A stretch of DNA of 46,565 nucleotides. Source: Agathobacter sp. Lineage in GTDB: Bacteria > Bacillota > Clostridia > Lachnospirales > Lachnospiraceae. The translations under genes and the position numbers were made by a program. Below are positions 40,948-46,565 of this stretch, piece by piece; the stretch's first letter is position 1, and the number at the start of each line of letters is the position of its first letter. The stretch covers positions 1 through 46,565 of the forward strand of contig JALFLB010000015.1 in assembly GCA_022775045.1 (NCBI GenBank), read 5' to 3'. Under the pieces are notes generated by a model, which worked only from the letters and a program-made list of their open reading frames with translations, did no database searches and was not told the origin of the DNA.

Positions 40948-43785
40948 TTAAGAGAACAGGTATGGTTTTAAAAATTGCCCCGTATAGGATTGCTGCACAG
41001 CACACACTTCCTCCGGTGTTCCCTTTGCTATAACCGTTCCGCCTCCATCGCCTCCTTCCGGTCCCATATCGATAATATAATCAGCCGTTTTGATTACATC
41101 AAGATTATGTTCAATGACCACAACCGTATTTCCACCATCAGACAATTTCCGCAAAATTTCAACAAGTTTATGAACATCTGCGAAATGCAGCCCGGTAGTC
41201 GGCTCATCCAGCACATAAATGGTTTTGCCGGTTCCCCGCTTACTCAATTCTGTTGCCAGCTTTATTCTCTGCGCCTCGCCTCCTGAAAGTTCCGTGGATG
41301 GCTGACCAAGCTTGATATAAGAAAGACCCACATCATAAAGTGTCTGTATCTTACGGTGAATCGTTGGAACATTTTTAAAAAAGTCCAAAGCCTCCTCAAC
41401 CGTCATATCCAGCACATCATAAATGCTCTTTCCTTTATATTTTACCTCAAGCGTCTCCCGATTATAACGTTTTCCTCCGCATACCTCACAAGGCACATAT
41501 ACATCCGGCAGGAAGTGCATCTCAATCTTGATAATTCCATCTCCATTACATGCTTCGCAACGCCCTCCTTTTACATTAAAACTGAAACGCCCTTTTTTAT
41601 ATCCGCGCGCCTTTGCATCGGATGTTGCTGCAAACAGATCTCGGATCAAATCAAACACCCCCGTATAGGTTGCAGGGTTCGACCGCGGCGTCCTGCCAAT
41701 TGGTGACTGGTCAATATCGATGATCTTATCGAGCTGCTCCACTCCGAGTATATCATCATGTTCTCCAGGAATACATCTTGCACGGTTTAAAGTTCTGGCC
41801 AGATGCTTATACAGAATTTCATTCGTCAGAGAACTCTTTCCCGACCCTGAAACCCCTGTAATGCAGGTCATAATTCCCAATGGAATATCCACATCAATAT
41901 TCTTCAGATTATTCTCTCTTGCGCCTTTAATGGTGAGAAAACCAGTCGGTTTGCGACGCTCTGCCGGAACCGGAATCTTCTTTCGTCCGCTCAGATAATC
42001 TCCTGTGATTGATTTTTTACACTTCATGATTTCTGCTGCCGTTCCCGCCGCCACAACTTCTCCACCGTGCACACCTGCTGCCGGACCAATATCAACGATA
42101 AAATCGGCTGCACGCATCGTATCCTCATCATGTTCTACAACAATCAGCGTGTTGCCAAGTTTTTTTAAATTCATCAAAGCATTCAGCAGCTTATCATTAT
42201 CCCTCTGATGCAGGCCAATACTCGGTTCGTCCAAAATATATGCAACTCCAACCAATCCTGATCCAATCTGGGTTGCCAGACGGATTCTCTGAGCTTCGCC
42301 ACCAGACAAGGATGCCGTCGCGCGTGTCAAGGTTAGATACTCCAGACCGACCTCCTGAAGGAATCCGACACGAGCACGGATTTCCTTCAAAATCTGATTC
42401 CCAATATATTGCTGTTGCTCGGTCAGCTGCATCTGATTTAAAAATACCACAAGTTCCTTCACCGACATGGATGTAATCTCATAGATATTTTTATCGCATA
42501 CGGTTACAGCCAGTGAACTTTTCTTCAACCGCTGCCCATGACACTCTGCACATGGTGTTATCCGCATGAACTGCTCGTACTCCTGCTTCATTGTATCAGA
42601 ACCGGTCTCACGATAACGCCGCTCCACATTTTTTATCAGGCCTTCCCAGTTCAGATCATAAACACCTTCCCCTCGCTGACCTTTATAGCGCACCTTCAGG
42701 ACCCGACCGTCTCCTCCATGAATCAACATATGCCGAATATCTGCAGACAACTCCTGATAAGGCGTATCTAATGAAAAACCATACCCTTCTGCCAAAGCTC
42801 GAAGTGTAGCGTAGGTATAGCTGGAAGGATCAGTACAGGACTGCCATCCCATCACCTGAATTGCCCCTTCTGCAATAGACAGACTTTTGTCTGGAATCAT
42901 CAGATTCTCATCAAATTCCATCTTATATCCTAATCCGTAACACACCGGGCAGGCTCCAAACGGATTATTGAATGAGAAACTTCTCGGTTCTACTTCATCA
43001 ATGCTGATATTACAATCCGGACACGCGAAATTCTGGGAAAAATTTATCGATTCTCCATCTATCACATCGACGATTGCATTCCCCTCTGTAAGTTCAAACA
43101 CGTTCTCCAAAGAATCGGTCAGACGCTTCTCAATTCCTTCCTTAATCACAAGACGATCCACAACAATATCAATATTATGTTTGATATTCTTATCCATCGG
43201 AATCTCCTCTGACAATTCATACAGATTACCATCCACAATTACACGAACATATCCGCTCTTCTTCGCCTTTTCAAACAGCTTCTGGTGCTCACCTTTCCGT
43301 CCACGTACAACTGGAGCAAGCACCTGGATTTTCGTCCGTTCCGGAAGCTTCATAACCGTATCCACCATCTGGTCAATTGTCTGTTTCTCGATTGCCCTGC
43401 CGCACTTCGGACAATGCGGAATTCCAATACGAGCATAAAGCAGGCGGAAATAATCATAAATCTCCGTCACCGTACCTACCGTGGATCGCGGATTACGATT
43501 CGTAGACTTCTGATCGATAGAAATCGCTGGTGGGAGTCCTTCAATAGACTCCACATTCGGTTTCTCCATCTGTCCCAAAAATTGTCTGGCATAGGAAGAC
43601 AAAGACTCCATATACCGTCTCTGACCTTCCGCATAAATTGTATCAAAGGCAAGAGACGATTTACCAGACCCTGACAACCCGGTCAATACCACAAACTCAT
43701 CCCTTGGAATATCGATATCAATCGACTTTAAATTATGTTCGCTTGCTCCGCGAATCTTAATGTATTTTCTCTCCTTCTTTGCCAT
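40948..43785 (-). CDS. uvrA: Excinuclease ABC subunit A
   Basis: Damage-recognition ABC ATPase of nucleotide excision repair, 945 residues. Two ATPase halves, each with Walker A (GLSGSGKSS, 36-44; GVSGSGKSS about 640) and signature LSGGEAQRI. Zinc modules CPKCG, CPDC...CPVC and CEAC...CEVC are intact. Ends with a normal C-terminus. It lies 27 bases after uvrB and is very probably co-transcribed with it. Confidence 0.98.
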
Positions 43786-43812: not shown

Positions 43813-45798
43813 CTATGATTCAATTTCTCTCAACATATTCTTAAGTGTAACCATCTTATCACGATATTCTGCCGCCGCCTCAAAATTGAGTTCCGCCGCC
43901 GCCTTTTTCATCTTTTTCTGGATATCTGCAATCAGTTTCTCGAGTTCTTTTCTGCTCATAGACTCCGGATCTTTAGTAAACTCCATCTCCTCCACTGCAA
44001 CCTTCTTGGAAATAGTAATCAGATCGCGAACAGATTTCTGAATTGTTGTCGGTGTAATACCGTGTTCTTCATTGTACGCCTGCTGTAGTTTGCGCCTGCG
44101 CTGCGTCTCATCGATTGCAACCCTCATAGAATCCGTAATCTTGTCTGCATACATAATCACATGGCCCTCACTGTTACGTGCAGCGCGCCCGATTGTCTGA
44201 ATCAGAGAAGTCTCCGAACGAAGAAATCCTTCTTTGTCCGCATCCAGAATAGCCACAAGAGTAATCTCCGGGATATCCAGTCCCTCTCGCAACAGATTGA
44301 TTCCCACCAGCACATCAAAAACATCCAGTCTCAAGTCCCTGATAATCTCCGCACGCTCAAGAGTATCAATATCCGAATGCAGATACTTAACCCGAATCCC
44401 CACTTCACTCATATACTGTGTCAGATCTTCCGCCATACGCTTGGTTAAGGTTGTAATCAACACCTTATGATGATTCGCAGTCTCCCTGTTCACCTCCCCA
44501 ATCAGATCATCAATCTGCCCTTCAACCGGACGAACCGATATTTCCGGATCAAGAAGTCCGGTGGGGCGGATAATCTGTTCTACCCGCAGCAGCTCATGCT
44601 CCTGCTCATAGACATTCGGTGTTGCTGAAACAAAGAGCATCTGATCAATCTTACTCTCAAATTCTTCAAAATTAAGCGGTCGGTTATCCAAAGCTGACGG
44701 AAGACGAAATCCATAATCCACAAGTGTCTGCTTACGGGATCGGTCTCCTGCATACATCCCGCGAACCTGTGGAATTGTAATATGTGATTCATCCACAATG
44801 ATCAAAAAGTCATCCGGAAAGAAATCCATCAACGTCAGCGGCGGAGCTCCTTCCGGCATAAAATTCAGATGTCTCGAATAATTCTCTATTCCAGAACAAA
44901 AGCCGGTCTCCCTCATCATCTCAATATCAAAATTTGTGCGTTCCGAAATACGCTGTGCTTCGATCAGCTTGTCCTCTCCTTTAAAATATCGAACCTGCTC
45001 CTCCAATTCTTTTTCAATGTTATTGCAGGCCTCATTAATCTTCTCCTGCGGCACAACGTAGTGAGATGCCGGGAAAATGATCGTATGTTCCAATGTGCAT
45101 TTGATTTCCCCTGTCAGAACATCAATCTCCGTAATACGGTCAATCTCATCTCCAAAAAATTCCACACGGATAGCCGTATCCGAATTGTTAGCCGGAAAAA
45201 TCTCAAGTACATCTCCGTGTACACGAAATGTACCGCGTTTAAAATCCATCTCATTCCTGTTATACTGCATATCAATCAACGCATGTACGACAACATCCCG
45301 ATCCTTTTCCATCCCAGGGCGCAGCGAAAGACTCATCCCCTTCCATTCATCCGGGCTTCCAAGTCCATAAATACAGGACACCGATGCCACAATAATAACA
45401 TCCCTGCGCTCTGTCAATGCTGCAGTTGCCGAAAGACGCAGTTTGTCAATCTCATCATTAACTGCCGAATCTTTCGCAATATAGGTATCCGACTGCGGCA
45501 CATACGCTTCTGGCTGATAGTAATCATAGTAGGACACAAAGTACTCAACTGCATTTTCGGGAAAAAACTCCTTAAATTCTGAGTACAATTGTCCTGCGAG
45601 GGTCTTATTATGACTTATGATAAGAGTAGGCTTATTCAGTGCTGCAATCACATTAGCCATAGTAAACGTCTTGCCCGAACCTGTAACGCCTAGTAAAGTC
45701 TGGAATTGATTGCCTTCCTTAAAGCCTTTTACAAGCTCCTCAATTGCCTGTGGCTGGTCTCCAGTAGGCTGATAGGGAGCATGAAGTTTAAACTCCAT
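43813..45798 (-). CDS. uvrB: Excinuclease ABC subunit B
   Basis: UvrB helicase of nucleotide excision repair, 661 residues. Walker A GVTGSGKT (37-44), the beta-hairpin region [16 protein letters not shown] (Walker B), helicase motif VI IGRAARN, and the C-terminal UVR domain (about 620-655: [26 protein letters not shown]) that contacts UvrC. Weak ribosome binding site AGAAAGAAG. The long 5' region carries a LexA box, a promoter within a hairpin, 9-bp repeats, and possibly a second promoter (TTGGCT-18-TATAGA, 45849-45820). Confidence 0.98.
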
Positions 45799-45929
45799 AA
45801 CATCATCTTCTTTCTATTTTCTATAGTAAAATTGACTTCTATAAGCCAACTCATTGTTACTCATGCATACTCAGCAAATTCGGAAATCAACTGAGAATCA
45901 CAATTGGATCACCAAATTCAGATGCCCAA

Positions 45930-45974
45930 ACTATACGGACTATATGGACTATATGAACTATATAGACAATATTT
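45930..45974. repeat. 9-bp tandem repeats upstream of uvrB
   Basis: Four consecutive units ACTATACGG, ACTATATGG, ACTATATGA, ACTATATAG (45930-45965) and a diverged fifth ACAATATTT (45966-45974). The unit length is close to one helical turn. It lies between uvrB and the integrase, within the likely 5' UTR of uvrB. Role unknown; could be integrase arm sites or simple-sequence expansion. Confidence 0.75.
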
Positions 45975-46008
45975 GTATTTTCCTATATAATTATCAGTAG
46001 TCAATGAC

Positions 46009-46086
46009 AAAAAAATAGACAAAATCAAGCATCTTTATAGTACGCACATACACTGAGATTATACTACAAAGCTTTGATTTTGTCTA
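46009..46086 (-). terminator. Long hairpin with T7 run downstream of the integrase
   Basis: Minus strand: TAGACAAAATCAAAGC (46086-46071) pairs with GCTTGATTTTGTCTA (46030-46016) with one bulged base, and the stem continues inward as TTTGTAGTA/TACTATAAA. Seven T follow the second arm (46015-46009). It should terminate transcripts coming from the integrase gene. Confidence 0.75.
46058..46086 (-). promoter_or_regulatory. uvrBA promoter inside the hairpin
   Basis: Minus-strand -35 TAGACA (46086-46081), 17-base spacer, -10 TATAAT (46063-46058). The -35 is the start of the hairpin's first arm, so RNA begun here lacks that arm and should escape termination, running into uvrB after about 250 bases. 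Confidence 0.75.
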
Positions 46087-46094
46087 TCCAGAAG

Positions 46095-46108
46095 CGAACG
46101 TTTGTTCC
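46095..46108 (-). promoter_or_regulatory. LexA (SOS) box
   Basis: CGAAC-GTTT-GTTC matches the Firmicute LexA/DinR box CGAACNNNNGTTCG at 9 of 10 specified positions. It ends 9 bases upstream of the -35 of the promoter that faces uvrB. UvrBA is a classical SOS target in Firmicutes, supporting function; LexA control of the integrase region is also possible. Confidence 0.8.
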
Positions 46109-46128
46109 TTTTCTTTTTAATATTACTC

Positions 46129-46565
46129 CTAAAAGAATTCACTCACATCAATGATAACCATGCTAAAATCTTTGTCCTCCTCTTCGCAATTAGTCTTTGG
46201 TACAACAGAATCAATAAAAGAATCCAGTTTATCCAACTTAATTACTGACAGCTTCGATTTATCTATATAATTGTCAACTGTAACAATCTCTGTCGAATGC
46301 CCTAAGTTCTTTGCAATTGCTTTTGGGCTTATCCCCTGCATAAGAAGAAGAGTCGCACATGTTCCTCTTAAATCATGCCATCTCACATCAGGTAAATCCA
46401 GTTCTTTAAGCAGTTGTTTGAAATGCTCATAATGATAATTTTTGCTTCTTGGTCTGCCATAAGAACTGCAACAAACGTACCCCAAATCTTGGAATGCAGT
46501 TTTTCTCCTGCTCTTACAAGCTTGATAGTACTTTCGTTGTTTGAGAATTGCTTCATATACAATAT
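46129..46565 (-). CDS. Tyrosine recombinase/integrase, C-terminal part (runs off the window)
   Basis: The open frame continues to the right edge, so only the last 144 or so residues are seen. The catalytic domain is intact: HDLRGTCATLLL gives the His-x-x-Arg, ISPKAIAKNLGHSTEIVT includes the LGHS box, and VDNYI holds the Tyr nucleophile. An acidic tail of about 30 residues (NCEEEDKD) follows. This is the type of integrase carried by conjugative elements and prophages; the element itself lies to the right of the window. Its 3' end 331 bases from uvrB implies an attachment site in or near 45799-46128. Confidence 0.9.
   Translation of the reverse strand, partial: IVYEAILKQRKYYQACKSRRKTAFQDLGYVCCSSYGRPRSKNYHYEHFKQLLKELDLPDVRWHDLRGTCATLLLMQGISPKAIAKNLGHSTEIVTVDNYIDKSKLSVIKLDKLDSFIDSVVPKTNCEEEDKDFSMVIIDVSEFF

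Follow-up and report, generated by a model that had tools for sequence, protein, structure and literature searches.

The uvrB locus and the element boundary

The window analyzed here, a 46,565-nucleotide (nt) stretch of an Agathobacter sp. genome that makes up contig JALFLB010000015.1 (C30 in our numbering), carries in this order a tyrosine recombinase gene, uvrB, uvrA, and mreB, and its sequence suggests that a site-specific integrative element ends inside uvrB. The recombinase gene (46129..46565, minus strand) is cut by the contig end, which is also the end of the window; the C-terminal 144 amino acids (aa) that remain match PF00589 at 2.7e-10 and are 58% identical over 142 aa to int2, the second of two recombinases encoded at the related locus L034. 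Downstream, on the same strand, a 661-aa open frame with UvrB domains comprises a 5' end of about 89 codons that includes the P-loop GVTGSGKT (45530..45798), predicted to be a replacement carried by the element, and a host-derived remainder (43813..45529) in frame with it; uvrA (40948..43785, minus strand) follows. Contig C42 of the same genome holds secA, a polysaccharide deacetylase gene, an orphan uvrB 5' fragment, and the left end of the element, and this fragment (C42:727-993, copy L038) represents the host's original uvrB 5' end with a LexA box of its own. In four relatives without the recombinase (L054-L057), secA, uvrB, uvrA, and mreB lie together, as tested with Pfam in L056; secA is directly upstream of uvrB in L056 and L057, and one extra gene follows secA in L054. 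The closest named contigs with a recombinase of the window's type are Lachnospiraceae metagenome assemblies.

Breakpoints and a step in identity both place the right-hand boundary of the element, and the probable crossover site, at an 11-bp attachment core, TTTGTnTCCTA, in uvrB codons 87-90 (45530..45540, minus strand). All 25 compared 5' fragments, 20 of them displaced and 5 located directly behind a recombinase, leave uvrB sequence right after this core, within nt 269-277 of the coding sequence, a range of 9 bp that holds across more than ten genera. Duplicate loci were omitted from the underlying junction list, as were uvrB hits with a first residue beyond 40 or a last residue below 80, and one fragment at a contig end (L048) was also excluded. 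Beyond the core lies element-specific sequence, with left ends common to related elements, and the core itself is present at both sides of the element, as is characteristic of a fixed site; both ends could be placed on one contig in G026, G032, G099, G115, G215, and G325. When UvrB residues 1-132 were searched in 98 genomes, the window's own included, the match was restricted to residues below 95 in 12, all in the window's genus and its own genome among them, with two of these short matches (G002, G016) at contig ends. The element carries an in-frame 5' coding end of its target: the head is free of stops in codons 3-88 in 20/20 joined copies in which it can be read.

Comparison with L035 places the identity step at the same position. 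The two uvrB genes are identical over nt 1-268 (268/268), first differ at nt 272, and agree at 1251 of 1624 positions (77%) over nt 276-1900; the low identity of the gene body indicates that they belong to different species. The element 5' end of the window and the native 5' end displaced to C42 agree at 190/262 positions. L096 and L103, which come from different genera, are 97.3% identical in the uvrB 5' end and 71% in the body, and 329/330 intergenic and 431/435 recombinase bases are identical between L033 and the window. Of the two uvrB 5' ends in the window's genome, the displaced one follows the uvrB body of relatives (rho 0.38, p 0.003, n 58), and the element-borne one does not (rho 0.08, p 0.53).

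In its intact form, at L034, the element encodes a 68-aa protein followed by adjacent tyrosine recombinases, int1 and int2 (398 and 433 aa), both with PF00589, as in the window, and with SAM-like N-domains. The 68-aa protein looks like an excisionase by eye, with no Pfam match, and the same gene order is found at L111. The element at L034 (genome G099) measures 12.6 kb and lies between a uvrB fragment and uvrB. In a survey of the family (299 genomes, nearly one per genus; E <= 1e-25), int2 relatives were detected in 24 genomes, including the window's own, at 33 places, five of which are int1 partners (26-29% identical, each directly before int2) and were left out. At 24 of the remaining 28 places, in 21 of the 24 genomes, uvrB or its 5' fragment lies within 2 kb on the same strand, at distances of 265-1550 bases; the other four comprise a contig that ends 274 bases past the gene (G161), a copy 1.3 kb from a contig end (G278:C11), and two weak matches (G213 and G393).

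We put the probability at roughly 90% that the window contains the right attachment site (attR) of a site-specific integrative element with its core in uvrB codons 87-90, which re-heads uvrB with an element-borne, LexA-boxed promoter. Because the element boundary lies inside uvrB, the promoter and about 89 uvrB codons would have been supplied by the element. The first-pass annotation of the window had the element ending upstream of uvrB, which the position of the boundary contradicts, and had left open whether the uvrB promoter was supplied on insertion or native; the 25 breakpoints and the identity step against L035 point to the former. Its proposal that insertion gave uvrBA an SOS-controlled promoter stands as far as the supply of the promoter is concerned, but SOS control would not have been added, the displaced native 5' end having a perfect LexA box of its own.

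According to this model, an intact element carries int1 and int2 in tandem (in two examples after the small excisionase-like protein), and downstream of them the LexA box and SOS-type promoter, then a leader in which candidate arm sites for the recombinase lie, then about 89 uvrB codons. Recombination between the element core and the chromosomal core would split uvrB, stranding the host promoter and the first 89 codons at the far end (attL), while the element 5' end would join the host's remaining codons in frame to give a chimeric gene of full length, controlled by the promoter and LexA box that the element brings. The original uvrB would return on excision, and a full-length, LexA-boxed gene would be present in either state. 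In the window's lineage, the captured promoter would have brought along a native-type terminator hairpin, which should stop element transcripts.

Promoter, LexA box, and hairpin

The promoter and LexA box upstream of the element uvrB head are recognizable by sequence, and they, like the hairpin, lie within a base or two of where the first-pass annotation had put them. The predicted promoter consists of a -35 sequence TAGACA (46081..46086) and a -10 sequence TATAAT (46058..46063), both on the minus strand, with a 17-nt spacer and 11/12 consensus matches; a promoter scan of 44000-46565 gave 13 hits, against 6.6 +/- 2.5. The Gram-positive type LexA box has the consensus GAACnnnnGTTC, and a perfect match to it, GGAACAAACGTTCG, is located at 46095..46108 (minus strand); 8-9 nt separate its inner edge from the -35. 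Because a search of the window with one mismatch allowed returned 7 hits where 7.0 were expected, the box is not significant by that search alone, and the case for it rests on its conservation across copies.

A perfect LexA box occurs in 19/26 element copies, 7/19 displaced fragments, and 18/38 recombinase-free copies, against 0.10, 0.04, and 0.07 expected from dinucleotide shuffles; boxes at 7/8 or better occur in 24/26, 12/19, and 25/38 (3.66, 1.26, and 2.15 expected). The L048 fragment is included among the 19 displaced fragments, and "recombinase-free" denotes the lack of a recombinase within 1.8 kb in the stretch examined. Four of the 38 recombinase-free copies (L042, L043, L044, and L050) belong to genomes that also contain an orphan fragment. 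Dropping them leaves 34, two with less than 1.4 kb of upstream sequence, of which 17 have a perfect box and 24 one at 7/8 or better; absence of the box from integrase-free relatives, which the first-pass annotation had named as counting against its reading, is thus not seen for most of them, and 10/34 have none in the 250 nt scanned. Where a perfect box is accompanied by a promoter-like site, the distance from box start to -35 start is 20-23 nt in 15/18 element, 6/6 displaced, and 11/17 recombinase-free copies. Three 7/8 boxes lie between lexA of the window's own genome and a divergent LysM gene. Since the box is found with and without the recombinase, in much of the group uvrB probably belongs to the SOS genes whether or not an element is present, and the element would bring its own version, to which LexA is predicted to bind.

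The -35 lies within the first arm of an inverted repeat whose arms (46015-46028 and 46074-46087) are 14/14 complementary and behind which a run of seven T residues follows at 46015-46009. The segment 46003-46092 folds at -28.4 kcal/mol (z = -6.0), and none of 200 shuffles was as stable. A stable hairpin followed by a U-run has the form of an intrinsic terminator, and this one (46009..46087, minus strand) is likely the terminator for leftward recombinase transcripts, in agreement with the role first proposed for it; its stem is AT-rich, and in a stricter, GC-based terminator scan it was not listed. RNA from the promoter itself was proposed to escape this stop. It would indeed be free of the hairpin, because the first arm is absent from it and the fold of 45995-46056, for RNA starting near 46051-46056, is no more stable than shuffles (z = +1.0). 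The further suggestion that uvrBA is thereby insulated from the element is half right: a terminator form does lie behind the recombinase gene, but the promoter is itself inside the element. An Rfam search of 45500-46565 gave three hits, all far below the gathering score and taken as chance, and a literature search on hairpin-embedded promoters returned nothing on point.

Among the 24 element copies with a LexA box to scan from, a strong hairpin with the -35 in its first arm (z -5.0 or lower) is present in four: the window, L033 (as L059), L035 (as L058), and L034 (as L100). The strong form also occurs in six recombinase-free uvrB copies (L020, L027, L042, L054, L056, and L057), all but L042 in genomes without an orphan uvrB fragment, and the hairpin-promoter is accordingly not regarded as something that the element invented. 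Weaker or doubtful folds (z -2.5 to +0.3) were obtained for L044, L096, L097, L098, L103, and L023, and no such hairpin was found in L038, the displaced native copy of the window's own genome. Across nine folded copies, many pairs of the arms vary in sequence with the pairing kept; this set was chosen for folding and anchored on GACA, and it shows differing arms that pair, not selection. Pairs were counted from individual folds, a MAFFT alignment of the hairpin having misplaced the 3' arms. The most economical reading of these sequences is that the hairpin is the terminator of the upstream gene, sharing bases with the uvrB promoter as a feature of uvrB in part of the genus, and that the element picked up this hairpin-promoter together with the uvrB 5' end. 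The overlap of the inverted repeat with the -35, and its retention in copies that have no upstream recombinase, would also fit a protein-binding or DNA-structure element of the promoter, such as the operator of a second regulator. We consider such a function unlikely given the long pairing arms, the T-runs of 4-8 behind the second arm in strongly folding copies, arms that vary while their pairing stays, and the position of secA directly upstream in L056 and L057, where a terminator is expected.

Transcription from the promoter is predicted to start near 46051 and would give a long, element-type uvrB mRNA leader (45799..46051, minus strand). In copies with a perfect box, the distance from the LexA box to the start-codon position is 245-438 nt in 18 element copies and 80-232 nt in 19 recombinase-free copies, L048 being counted among the latter in this comparison of leaders and spacing; L070, the nineteenth element copy with a perfect box, was left out on account of an assembly gap in its uvrB head. 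The leader contains GGTGATCCAATT (45902..45913, minus strand), a variant, identified by eye, of the end motif GGTGACCnnATTCGT. Variants of this motif, likewise found by eye, are present in 7/7 right ends and in 6/7 left ends inspected, that of G325 being the exception; in the left ends they sit about 125-145 bp inside. Four repeat copies of the ACTATAnGG type, spaced 9 bp (repeat family D1; 45930..45974, plus strand), have an inverted counterpart in the left end on C42, and inverted 12- and 16-bp words are shared with L038. Both the motif and the repeats are candidate arm sites for the recombinase. A second promoter-like site with 11/12 matches (TAGACA-17-TATAAT, 45963-45991, plus strand) faces the recombinase, away from uvrB; it overlaps the repeat array and may be a chance occurrence.

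Competing explanations

Several observations weigh against the proposed model or limit its reach. Contigs C42 and C30 are linked by synteny only, many of the genomes compared are assemblies in fragments, and several genomes (G054, G056, and G059) have an orphan fragment with no recombinase beside uvrB. The recombinases at L033, L040, and L041 lack their N-terminal part and are cut at different points, for which reason some copies are probably stuck; the window's copy, with its recombinase cut by the contig end, may be immobile as well. A LexA-like box is absent in element copies L009 and L072, and five further element copies reach only 7/8. In L096 and L103, the 330 bases preceding uvrB agree at no more than 245/405 positions of their alignment. 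Agreement between uvrB of L033 and that of the window stops near nt 127 (123/127, then 105/141), which implies that other recombination also reshuffles the 5' stretch of uvrB. Two copies without a recombinase, L054 and L055, resemble the window's uvrB at 94.5% and 90.2% in the 5' end and at 76-77% in the body, and could be either donors or sites that once held the element. Finally, the tracking of the uvrB body by the displaced fragment is a weak effect.

The presence of the LexA box, and in some relatives of the same hairpin-promoter, at uvrB genes without a recombinase is what would be expected if the element had inserted into the intergenic region upstream of an intact native promoter, with uvrB and its promoter being wholly host DNA. 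Such an insertion would account neither for the further uvrB 5' end, with a separate LexA box, that lies next to the secA side of the locus in this genome nor for the location of the identity step against L035, which falls at uvrB nt 268-272, where 25/25 fragments break, and not upstream of the gene; we regard this explanation as very improbable. An origin of the duplicated 5' ends in ordinary homologous recombination or partial gene duplication, the recombinase being merely nearby, would draw on the mosaic 5' end of L033 and on G054 and G055, where another 3' piece of secA lies behind the left end, signs that other recombination acts here. It appears just as improbable in view of the 9-bp breakpoint range over more than ten genera, the element-specific left ends directly after the core, and the recombinase beside uvrB at 24/28 places. 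Slightly less remote, but still improbable, is that site-specific insertion leaves the rebuilt uvrB poorly expressed or inactive, making the element a repair-off switch. Precedents can be cited: SpyCI acts in this manner at mutL (accessible text of PMC3430984), and expression of re-headed dusA is reduced, not lost, according to the available part of PMC8409611. The open frame kept in 20/20 joined copies with a readable head, and the perfect LexA box in 19/26 element copies, argue instead for a uvrB that would be expressed and functional after joining to the element's 5' end.

Distribution, cargo, and related systems

Outside the window's family, an order-wide sample yielded int2 matches in three genomes of family f17 (L116, L118, and L119), where they likewise precede uvrB. 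In a class-wide search at E <= 1e-60, matches were obtained in 3/391 genomes, with G792 the only one from another family; its int pair shows 33% identity, and the 1.5 kb examined behind it contains no uvrB match. Scans of viral contigs with int2 and with an int2 alignment confirmed no relative. Phage and plasmid records gave 35 and 21 matches, all below 60% identity, the 16 matches listed being at 25-30%.

In the few elements examined, the cargo is largely of defense type: C5 methyltransferases, type III restriction-modification, AbiE, a PIN protein, and a Schlafen-type protein. The C5 methyltransferases are of the type II kind, and no partner endonuclease was recognized in this cargo. By coordinates, a relaxase fragment falls in the G026 element, and neither a relaxase nor a coupling protein is present in the G099 element, which contains a third, shorter tyrosine-recombinase-like gene (L034:247-1194; PF00589 at 5.9e-10). 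In G127 (C33:77997-205403), about 127 kb separate the recombinase from the displaced fragment; this interval, in which a type IV coupling protein is encoded at 170929, is perhaps a conjugative version. At L033, L040, and L041, other genes lie directly upstream of int2 (a type III methyltransferase in L033), and these copies look frozen with their cargo exchanged; the window's genome lacks the region that precedes int in L033.

Modules of the Tn916 Xis-Int type consist of a small protein encoded before a tyrosine integrase with a SAM-like domain. The uvrB elements share this arrangement of small protein and integrase and differ from it in having two tandem recombinases and one fixed coding site.

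In kind, the uvrB elements are 5'-end-replacing elements like those of the SXT/prfC and dusA types, at a new, SOS-type target. The SXT/R391 integrative and conjugative elements (ICEs) in prfC and the islands in dusA supply the promoter and N-terminus of their target, as described in the accessible portions of PMC8409611 and PMC4482086. The likeness to SXT/R391 in prfC (Hochhut and Waldor 1999, as cited in PMC8409611) would lie in this element-supplied promoter and N-terminus, whereas here a LexA-boxed repair gene, uvrB, is the target, about 89 codons are swapped together with that box, and intact copies encode two tandem recombinases. The dusA-specific islands (IMEVchUSA3, PMC8409611; dusA integrase family, PMC4482086) leave a host 5' remnant at their other side and, by the sections available, occur in many bacteria; the uvrB elements differ in their target and in a carried head of about 89 codons, and LexA control is not mentioned for dusA in those parts of the two papers. 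SpyCI elements of Streptococcus pyogenes are similar in occupying the 5' end of a DNA-repair gene, mutL. Their integration silences mutL and produces a mutator state, and in one decayed copy a promoter inside an int pseudogene drives mutL (PMC3430984, accessible text), whereas uvrB is predicted to be intact and LexA-boxed in both the integrated and the excised state. An ICE placed between uvrB and secA in Streptococcus agalactiae (PMC12441131) is likewise an integrative element beside uvrB, and replacement of the uvrB 5' end is not mentioned in the portion of that paper that is accessible. This was the nearest case found: an open-access search, which leaves out most subscription journals, returned no description of uvrB as such an insertion site, and PMC7466150, PMC10732058, and PMC6543542, in their available text, name UvrB only as cargo or as a helicase.

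More generally, we lean toward the view that this element family has made an SOS-type uvrB head part of its attachment module, such that UvrB in many Lachnospiraceae would be a chimera whose SOS control is element-owned and whose head is passed between genera. Each integration would then exchange the host's uvrB promoter, leader, and N-terminus with its P-loop for a mobile version. Re-heading is known for prfC and dusA; at uvrB, with an SOS switch, it would tie a core repair gene to mobile-element traffic across a large family and would amount to a natural experiment in which a repair helicase has its promoter and N-terminus exchanged. Orphan 89-codon uvrB heads offer a simple marker for finding such elements, and uvrB would be an insertion hotspot that in the examined copies harbors restriction-modification, AbiE, and other defense-type genes. 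For this group, phylogenies of uvrB and maps of the SOS regulon call for caution, since they would mix host and element sequence.

Some further arrangements were observed at element ends. At L042:7319-8072 (G054) and L047:1-395 (G055), the left end leads, a short way past the motif GGTGACCCAATT, into a second copy of the secA 3' end; in G054 this secA piece is followed by a gene and a native-type uvrB promoter, and the arrangement is possibly a snapshot of the capture of a native uvrB head. At L107, L109, L101, L102, and L106, a recombinase and a uvrB head are followed by another left end, which fits tandem or circular forms without proving them; the head in L101 has a stop. In G148, whose contig C1 spans 6.9 Mb, uvrB with its recombinases lies at 1.457 Mb and two orphan uvrB 5' fragments lie on the opposite strand at 5.450 and 5.453 Mb, indicative of either a rearrangement through the element or further copies.
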